Below, in pieces: positions 30,115-33,640 of a DNA stretch of 64,000 nt (its first letter is position 1; the number at the start of each line of letters is the position of its first letter). The notes beneath the pieces were generated by a model. It had not been told where the DNA came from, ran no database searches, and saw only the letters and a list, made by a program, of their open reading frames with translations. The DNA comes from Methanosarcina barkeri str. Wiesmoor (lineage in GTDB: Archaea > Halobacteriota > Methanosarcinia > Methanosarcinales > Methanosarcinaceae): NCBI RefSeq assembly GCF_000969985.1, contig NZ_CP009526.1:3410001-3474000 (forward strand), written 5' to 3'. The position numbers were made by a program, and so were the translations under genes.

Positions 30115-30148
30115 AAAATCGAAGGGAAAATAAAGATAATAAAAAGAG

Positions 30149-30222
30149 TGGGCCCGCTGAGATTCGAACTCAGGATCCCCGCCGTGTAAAGGCGATGTCA
30201 TAACCGACTAGACCACGAGCCC
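30149..30222 (-). tRNA. tRNA-Val (TAC)
   Basis: 74 nt. The acceptor stem is GGGCTCG/CGGGCCC with A73. The anticodon stem TCGCC/GGCGG with loop TTTACAC gives anticodon TAC. The T arm is CTGAGTTCGAATCTCAG. CCA is not encoded. Confidence 0.95.
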
Positions 30223-30703
30223 AGTTTGCCGATATTTTCAGAGTCGCTCTAAGAGCAAGACCAAAATGTCACTAGTTATATATATCTCTTTTGTTAGGAG
30301 AAAAACTCAGGACCTATCTGAAAGTTAGTTACTTCACTAAATAAGAATCTTGTTTACCGAATAAAACTCCCGTTGCACTAAATCAGACTAGTATTACGCC
30401 ATATAATATATCTATTGAACTAAATAAAGAAATCTTATTATAATAGATAATATATTAGTAAAAATAACAGATAGGTTATTTTTAAACTAAAGTTTTACTA
30501 TCTCAAATGAGATATTTAGCATAGAAGATTAACCTCATATTTAATTTTTAAATCAAAATATACATATGCACACGTAGAATAAAATTAAGAATATTTTGAT
30601 TTAAAAAATTGAACTTGTTTTATTTATATGCCAGTCTGAGAGAATTTTGAATAGGTAAAAAAGCTAAGCAAAATATATTTATATGAGATAAGCATGAAGT
30701 AAT

Positions 30704-30785
30704 TTATGAGCGGGTCACTATTTTATATGATAACCCCAACACTAAACACCCCAATTCAAACTCCCCAACCCGCTCATCTTATTCT
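30704..30785 (+). ncRNA. Candidate small RNA, hairpin with CCCCAA loops (copy 1)
   Basis: A perfect 10-bp inverted repeat, ATGAGCGGGT (30706-30715) and ACCCGCTCAT (30768-30777), encloses a 52-nt loop containing three CCCCAA motifs. A TATA box (AAATATATTTATATG, centre near 30677) lies 29 bp before the stem, placing the transcription start at the stem base. It resembles the element at 31142-31250 in stem, loop opening and promoter spacing. It contains no credible reading frame. Transcription is inferred. Confidence 0.55.
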
Positions 30786-31141
30786 CATCAAAATAGAAAT
30801 ATATATTTAGGGAAACAATTCAAAAACTCTAAATTATGAGGAAAGGAAAACAGTGTTGGAAAATAGACAAAGATATCTGGCCATGAAAATGGCAACGGAG
30901 ACTCATTTAGAAGACGATTTAATCTGAAGCAAGCATTTAAATTATTAAAAATGAAAACGATTAAGAGAAGGGAATTTACATAGGTTCAGGCATTTTAACC
31001 CCACCCGATGATTATTATAGACTTTTAATCCAAAAGTAGAATTTCTAGCTAAAAGAAAAACTTTTTAATATGAATTATGAATTATATATTAGAGTACATA
31101 GAAATGAAAAGCTATTTATAAGATGAATAAATAGTCATGTC

Positions 31142-31250
31142 GAGTGAGCGGGTCTCTTTTCCATAGTATAACCCCAAAACAATATCCCCCAACTATTTCC
31201 CCCAACTATTCCCCAAACTCTCCAGCCCGCTCACAAACTTTTCTCAATTT
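31142..31250 (+). ncRNA. Candidate small RNA, hairpin with CCCCAA loops (copy 2)
   Basis: A perfect 9-bp inverted repeat, GTGAGCGGG (31144-31152) and CCCGCTCAC (31226-31234), encloses a 73-nt loop with four C-rich motifs (ACCCCAA, ATCCCCCAAC, TCCCCCAAC, TCCCCAA). TATTTATA at 31113-31120 is centred 28 bp before the stem. The outermost pair is G-C here and A-T in copy 1, a compensatory change. A T-rich stretch (CTTTTCTCAATTTGTTTT) follows, suitable for termination. No protein is encoded. Confidence 0.55.
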
Positions 31251-31391
31251 GTTTTAACTATATCCTTCCGTTCAGAAAGCTTTTCTGTCAATTTTAATTA
31301 ACTCACCTAGTGCCATGGCAATTTAATTATTTGGCATAATTTTTTGATAGCTTCTTATCAACAGATAGCGATTCAGAGTAAACATGTGACC

Positions 31392-31711: not shown

Positions 31712-33640
31712 TTAGAAGTCGAAAAGCGTTTTTTGTGTTTTCGACTCGACTTTTTTGGGAGTTTCGCTGACTTTGACCTCAGATTTTTCAGAATTATCTG
31801 AAACTTTTTTGATAGCAGGCTCACGGTTTACAGATTTCACGGATCTGGAAAGTTCGGGAGAGATGCTATTTTCTATCGGTTCAGAGTCAGAAAAAGCTTC
31901 CTTCTCAACGGGCCCAGGCAAGGATGAAGAATTCTTAACCTTGAGACTATCGTGTTCAAGTGAAATGGATGTAAGGCTATCAGATTTGATCCCAATATCA
32001 TCAATCTCGGCCTGATCCTGCTCCGGTATAAGAGTGTCAGAAGTAAAACTATCAGGTGTTAAGGTAACAGGTGCAAGGATATCAGGTGCAAGGTTACCAG
32101 GTTTAATGGTATCAGAAGTATTATTTTCCGAATTCTTAGTTTCTGGAGAAATTTCAGGTGGAATATCAAAACCAAAGTTAAGAGTCTTCTGCCCACCCTG
32201 AGAAGTCCTGGAGTTGGGAACTTCGAGCCTCTCAGAATGTTTCCCATCTTTTTCCACAGAATTATTAACTGAGAAAACAGAAAGATCCTCTTTACTATTG
32301 CCTGGGGGAGCAGGAGTCCTGAAAAACTCAGCTCCATCAGATTCTTCATTTCCTTCAAGGAGAAGTTCCTGCGCCCTTTCGTAGATTTTCTGCAGCTTTT
32401 TACTGGCTTTTGTGCTCCCCGAGAGATATATCAGCTCTTCAAGTTCAAGCCCGAGGCCTGCAGTAATTTCGATCGCAGATTCTTCATTCTTTAACATGCG
32501 AGAGTAAAGCTCCAGCAGGTTATTTCTTGAATAACGCATAGACTCGAAGTTGTGTTCTCCAACTTTAGAAGCTATATTATCCCTGAGGTCTCGTTTAGAA
32601 CGTATCTGCCCCATTTTTTTCCAGAGAGAAGGAGGCTGGTACTTGATAAATCCGGGATAGGGCCGTGTCTTTGAGACCGAAGTTCCACAGACCATCAACA
32701 TGCTAGCATACCTCCACATCCTATAGTTCTGGCGTTTTTTTACGCGCCCAAGGTAGAGATCGGCCTTTGAGAGATAACCAAAGCCAGTTTTTATATCCTC
32801 AAGATTTCCATCCTTAGATGCATACTGGAAAGGCAGGTTTTCGTCGATCCAGTGTACAAGGTCTTCAGGGCTCTCATCAAGACCGCGAGCTGCTTCCAGA
32901 GCCTTTTTACAGTCCGTGCTCTTAAAGATTCTCTGCATTGCCTTGAAGATGTTTTCCTTTACATCTCGGCCTGAAGTGCTGAGATCCTCAACTTCCAGCG
33001 TTTTCCTCCCGGTAGCTGCAGCCTGAAGGTCGTTAATTGCACTTCTGAGATCCCCTCCAGCCCCTTCAGCAATTTGCTGGATTGCATCCGGGCTGCATAA
33101 AATATCCTCGCTCTCGCAGACCTTCTTCAAAGCAGGGACCATAGAACGGCTCTGCACTGAGCCGAACTTTATTTCCAGACAGAGGTTCCGGATAGTAGGA
33201 GTCAACCCATAAATATCATTTGCAATTAGCACTATGGGTTGAAGAGTGTTCTTTATAATTCCTGCAATAGCCCGCATTCCGCCCCTGTCTGCAGTCCCGT
33301 GAATATTATCCGCTTCGTCCAGGATAATCAGGCGTTTTCCTCCAAAAAAGGTATTCATTGAAGCTGCCGACCCCGCAACTCTTTCAATAACACCTGCAGT
33401 CCTCTGGTCACTTGCATTGAGTTCGATGACTTCCCAATCCAGATCGCGGGCAAGAGCGTGGGCAGTAGAAGTCTTCCCTACTCCTGCAGGCCCATGAAGG
33501 ACCACTGCCCTTCTATCTGGAATGCCTGAAAGCCACTTCTCAGCCCAGGTCCGCAAATACTGCACCGCCTTCTTGTTCCCTACAATCTCTTTCAGGGTCT
33601 GTGGGCGGTATTTCTCAGCCCATTCAATTGCCAACGTCAT
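31712..33640 (-). CDS. rfcL: Replication factor C large subunit
   Basis: About 642 residues from the ATG at 33640; a TTG at 33655 would add five. It is the clamp-loader large subunit that opens PCNA with RfcS. AAA+ features are Walker A GPAGVGKT (about 50-57), Walker [11 protein letters not shown], and sensor 1 region LIANDIYGL. The C-terminal 190 residues are a long low-complexity linker rich in Ser, Glu, Pro and Thr, with short repeats ([11 protein letters not shown]), ending in QKTLFDF, a PCNA-interacting PIP box at the extreme C-terminus. It is monocistronic. Confidence 0.95.

Follow-up and report, generated by a model that had tools for sequence, protein, structure and literature searches.

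A C-rich hairpin small RNA family carried across the class Methanosarcinia

What is encoded by a stretch of archaeal DNA that contains no credible gene, but in which the same hairpin appears twice behind the same promoter? This question is raised by a region of Methanosarcina barkeri str. Wiesmoor that lies within a window of 64,000 nucleotides (contig NZ_CP009526.1, positions 3,410,001 to 3,474,000). A preliminary description, made from the sequence alone, proposed two paralogous hairpin elements about 440 bp apart, with matched promoters and C-rich loops, as candidates for a small RNA family under selection at the RNA level. The two elements are indeed present as described, and the analysis reported here shows that they are derived members of a family much larger than the two copies suggested.

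Two hairpins between tRNA-Val and rfcL

Both elements lie in a region without a credible open reading frame, between the gene for tRNA-Val (30148-30222, - strand) and an rfcL-like gene ending at 31712 (- strand). Element 1 spans 72 nt (30706-30777) and is closed by a perfect 10-bp stem, while element 2 spans 91 nt (31144-31234) and is closed by a stem of 9-10 bp, in which GTGAGCGGG(T) faces (G)CCCGCTCAC. The features of the locus, in window coordinates, are as follows.

30668-30683, + strand: promoter of element 1, with a BRE-like GCAAAA (30668-30673) and the TATA box TATTTATA (30676-30683)
30706-30715, + strand: 5' stem arm of element 1, ATGAGCGGGT
30716-30767, + strand: loop of element 1, with a U-tract (30721-30724) and three C-runs (30734-30737, 30749-30752, 30763-30766), without stable inner pairing
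30768-30777, + strand: 3' stem arm of element 1, ACCCGCTCAT
31113-31120, + strand: TATA box TATTTATA of element 2
31144-31153, + strand: 5' stem arm of element 2, GTGAGCGGGT
31154-31224, + strand: loop of element 2, with a U-rich start and four C-runs (31172-31175, 31186-31190, 31199-31203, 31211-31214) and repeated CCCCCAACTATT units
31225-31234, + strand: 3' stem arm of element 2, GCCCGCTCAC
31235-31257, + strand: G-poor, T-rich stretch after the stem, a possible terminator (inferred)

The elements start 438 bp apart, and C-runs followed by AA number three in one and four in the other. The TATA boxes are centred 26.5 and 27.5 nt before the stems, slightly closer than the 28-29 bp given in the preliminary description; the same box stands at the same distance in orthologues. 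The outermost pair is A-U in one element and G-C in the other, as had been pointed out, and orthologues show the G-U intermediate. Folding gave z-scores of -4.4 and -4.1 on the + strand, with 0 of 200 shuffles as stable, and weaker values on the - strand. Chance is excluded by the homologues described below. A search of Rfam 15 returned only tRNAs in the window; near the elements there were only weak chance hits to snoRNA models, below the gathering score.

Of 60 related genomes, 29 have matches to element 2 and 31 have matches to element 1. Most genomes of the same genus carry both, in the same order and, in most assembled cases, a few hundred bases to about 2 kb apart beside rfcL. Loop length changes freely among these orthologues, with elements of 68-76 nt and 89-93 nt and up to 103 and 160 nt. 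In the longest case (the genome G016, reverse strand of positions 1415-1574 of the stretch L031), the element 2 orthologue has been expanded by about nine CCCCCAACTATT-type units, a recent repeat expansion inside an RNA loop. No reading frame is kept.

A family found in 99 of 100 genomes of the class

A search with a covariance model had been named in advance as the way to test the RNA reading, and the absence of further homologues with stem covariation as an outcome that would count against it. A first model (R1), built mostly from Methanosarcina copies, found a third copy in the host genome (contig C2, 979876-979960, - strand) and at least one hit in 145 of 150 genomes of the order. Inspection of these members revealed an ancestral core of about 55-65 nt, consisting of a stem, a short spacer, a U-tract, ACUAACCCCCACUCCCCA and the returning stem. 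The stems differ by compensatory changes: GTGAGCGGG/CCCGCTCAC, GTGGGCAGG/CCTGCCCAC, GACGAGCGGG/CCCGCTCGTC and GATAAGCGGG/CCCGCTTATC. A fourth host copy at C2:21921-21990 has a different stem (GAACGGGCGAG) but the same loop core. More loosely related are two paralogues near C2:2700579 and C2:2930600 (stretches L319 and L325), with a different closing stem (GGGCATCTGG/CCAGATGCC), an extra inner hairpin AAGGTC..GACCTT and the same U-tract plus CCCCC/CUCCCC loop, which could represent a sister family. Elsewhere in the host (C2:2106198, around position 1501 of the stretch L253), a TTTAAATA box is followed by an intergenic segment with GTGGGG ... CCCCAC complementarity, which looks like another small RNA-like hairpin, G-rich on its 5' side.

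A second covariance model (R2) was made of the ancestral core (stem, U-tract, ACUAACCCCCACUCCCC, stem). With genomes of at least 85% completeness and a cut-off of E <= 1e-3, it finds members in 99 of 100 genomes of the class (GTDB Methanosarcinia, judged by the named organisms), with 1-8 copies each, and in 0 of 292 genomes from other classes of the phylum. The exception (G153) belongs to a genus (g22) in which the R1 scan also found no member in two further genomes of 1.7-1.8 Mb (G219 and G222). It is the only genus of the class sampled more than once without any member; it lies in the same family and is perhaps Methanimicrococcus, which is an inference. Specificity is good, as on 1.26 Mb of the host the only hits better than E 0.017 are the two window copies and two other members. 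The window copies have the features of the family, namely an end stem of 8-11 bp, a U-tract, a C-run core next to the 3' arm and a BRE/TATA about 28 nt upstream, and score 43.5 and 28.7 bits (E 6e-9 and 1.2e-4), while the copy at C2:21921-21990 scores 50 bits. A pattern scan named the carriers as Methanosarcina, Methanolobus, Methanococcoides, Methanohalophilus, Methanomethylovorans, Candidatus Methanoperedens and ANME-2 archaea. A single non-archaeal pattern hit (stretch L151, labelled as a Geobacter MAG) was not confirmed by the model. No viral or plasmid carriage was found, the one hit on a viral contig being a chance match in GC-rich phage DNA without the hairpin.

The stem covaries strongly. 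On 77 distinct core members the helix has 107 cells changed on both sides against 44 in shuffles, and a covariation score of 0.324 against 0.173, with 0 of 500 shuffles as high in each case. On 38 diverse members the count was 53 against 16 (0 of 500), and controls in which the stem was slid collapse. The alignments were fitted to or chosen for this stem, and relatives are not independent; however, the range of pair types (for example GC, AU, GU and UA at one position) is hard to explain otherwise. Non-Watson-Crick cells are G-U in 16 cases and A-C in 2, which places the RNA on the C-rich strand. In 104 non-redundant upstream regions, a BRE (about -42 to -38) and a TATA box (about -35 to -29, relative to the GC of the stem core) stand out at a fixed distance. 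A weaker purine preference about 7 nt before the stem may be the start site, and the first 9 nt after the stem are G-depleted and T-rich.

The reading of the elements as paralogous small RNAs under RNA selection is therefore supported by every test that was available, although it was not shown that a transcript exists or that no member equals a described M. mazei sRNA, and there were no expression or target data. The probability that this is a real RNA family is about 0.95.

Possible partners of the C-run loop

Neighbouring genes are conserved within genera but differ between them, with none conserved across genera, and the gene downstream in Methanosarcina is on the other strand. A cis leader is thus unlikely and a trans-acting RNA likely. 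What, then, does the loop bind? The loops hold C-runs separated by A/U spacers and almost no G. In 840 predicted genes of the host, GGGG lies at the ribosome-binding site (RBS) in 122, against 14 in upstream and 28 in coding control windows, and GGGGG in 44 against 3 and 5. It should be kept in mind that gene starts were predicted with an SD-based score, which favors G-rich RBSs. The loops bind the RBS window better than control windows, and copy 3 has more very strong RBS pairings than block-permuted loops (28 against 17.7 +- 4.4). Two nearby amidohydrolase-like paralogues (stretch L385, at 13084 and 16898) share a leader with paired G-runs (GGGGGAAATTTCAGATGGGGG) that matches the C-run spacing of element 2, and are candidate targets. 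However, order-specific RBS pairing was not supported. Permuted loops of equal composition pair with RBSs as well as the natural ones (14 of 40 permutations as good or better for the ancestral core and 36 of 40 for element 2), while the anti-SD positive control is order-specific (0 of 40). The near-invariant order CCCCCACUCCCC over a whole class is not explained by loose RBS pairing. Moreover, a perfect complement of the 12-mer tested, TGGGGAGTGGGG, was sought in the host, and the sequence occurs exactly only inside sRNA genes; sites with one mismatch are further members, coding sequence or unrelated intergenic DNA. Complementarity to rRNA was not examined.

The explanation we favor is that of a trans-acting small regulatory RNA. 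Comparison of genomes shows that the family is carried by essentially all Methanosarcinia, and covariation and folding show that the ends are clamped together so that a nearly G-free loop with a U-tract and several C-runs is displayed single-stranded. The remainder is inferred: transcription from the conserved promoters, an RNA that starts a few nucleotides before the stem and ends just after it, and C-runs that most likely pair with G-run RBSs of many mRNAs and hinder translation initiation, as the RBS-masking sRNAs of M. mazei do (PMC5867862; PMC3510493). In this view, extra or expanded copies add C-runs and make binding multivalent. That the U-tract may recruit the Sm-like protein SmAP is speculative. 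Target repression was not measured, and this mechanism is tentative, with a probability of about 0.4.

Nearly as likely is a protein-binding RNA, in which the loop would be a docking platform or sponge for a C-run-binding protein (KH, TRAM or cold-shock-like) and the stem and U-tract would be part of the RNP. Such an RNA would work like CsrB/RsmZ or Y RNA rather than by antisense pairing. This would fit the class-wide conservation of both the core order (ACUAACCCCCACUCCCC) and the stem sequence, the repeated C-run units, the lack of tuning of RBS pairing to loop order and the lack of a perfect mRNA complement of the tested 12-mer, but no protein partner has been identified, and the G-runs at RBSs of the same genome offer a ready base-pairing target. 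CsrB/RsmZ-type sponges and Y RNAs similarly have a repeated short motif in unpaired positions or a large loop closed by a terminal stem, but here the motif is a C-run and not GGA, and no CsrA or Ro partner has been shown. A DNA-level inverted repeat, mobile miniature element or transcription terminator could account for the perfect inverted repeats, the tandem copies and the T-rich stretch after the stem. It is strongly disfavored by the tolerance of G-U but not A-C, the promoter at fixed distance, the low copy number with orthologous positions within genera, and the variable loop length. Equally improbable is a small leaderless mRNA or dual-function RNA. ATG/GTG opens the stem, some copies read (M/V)SGSLF, element 1 has an in-frame run of 34 codons, and sRNA154 carries a leaderless small ORF (PMC11456600). 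However, the frame breaks between orthologues, with early stops (MSGSLF followed by two stops in the stretch L017) and lengths differing by 1-8 nt, and core-type members do not keep the start or frame.

Relation to described sRNAs

Identity with an RNA already described had been set out beforehand as a finding that would overturn the proposal, with sRNA41, sRNA154 and sRNA162 of M. mazei as the candidates to compare. These three RNAs mask RBSs, and like them the elements are intergenic and likely trans-acting, with their own promoter and a single-stranded region able to pair with RBSs. The elements do not fit sRNA162 (the sRNA162/sRNA171 family), which is 191 nt long with three stem-loops and a 39-nt linker, lies next to MM2441/MM2442 and is known only from Methanosarcina (PMC3510493). 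In contrast, the elements are single hairpins of 72 and 91 nt next to tRNA-Val and rfcL, and the family has one end-closing stem, a C-run loop and a class-wide distribution; this comparison rests on the published description and not on the sequences. Nor do they fit sRNA154, which has two stem-loops, is induced by nitrogen limitation and carries a leaderless 20-aa ORF, as they have a single stem and no conserved ORF; expression was not part of this comparison. For sRNA41, reported to mask several RBSs within polycistronic ACDS mRNAs (PMC5867862), as a short C-rich motif would, sequence identity was not assessed. Its ACDS targets were used as a signature instead, with a mixed result that does not settle the matter: element 2 pairs strongly with the cdhD RBS of the host (-30.1 and -23.4 kcal/mol), but the cdhA and cdhC RBSs pair no better than average. 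That at least one member is an already described M. mazei sRNA seems unlikely, yet it is not ruled out.

Members may also sit unnamed among the hundreds of unexamined intergenic sRNAs listed for M. mazei and Methanolobus. For Methanolobus psychrophilus, nine highly conserved cold-induced sRNAs are reported (PMC5378194), whose sequences were not compared. In the literature searched, no relevant paper, and none on archaea, prints the core sequence, and the papers that print one of the searched strings are unrelated. Outside the archaea, staphylococcal sRNAs with C-rich loops (e.g., IsrR) and other bacterial sRNAs with C-rich seeds have C-runs in loops that can pair with G-rich Shine-Dalgarno sequences, but they come from an unrelated lineage with different promoters and structure, and no homology is claimed. 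On this evidence, the family as such is undescribed.

Few archaeal regulatory RNAs have known functions, and most are confined to one genus; how archaeal sRNAs act is a long-open question, and Methanosarcina is genetically tractable. It is possible, though less likely than not, that this is a near-universal RNA of Methanosarcinia, both methanogens and ANME-2 anaerobic methane oxidizers, with a housekeeping or global role, in which the conserved U-tract/C-run loop binds one conserved partner (a protein or RNP), and that it was lost only in a reduced lineage and not previously recognized as a family. A compact RNA kept in nearly every sampled genome of the class that holds the main acetate-using methanogens and the ANME-2 methane oxidizers is probably important to their physiology.
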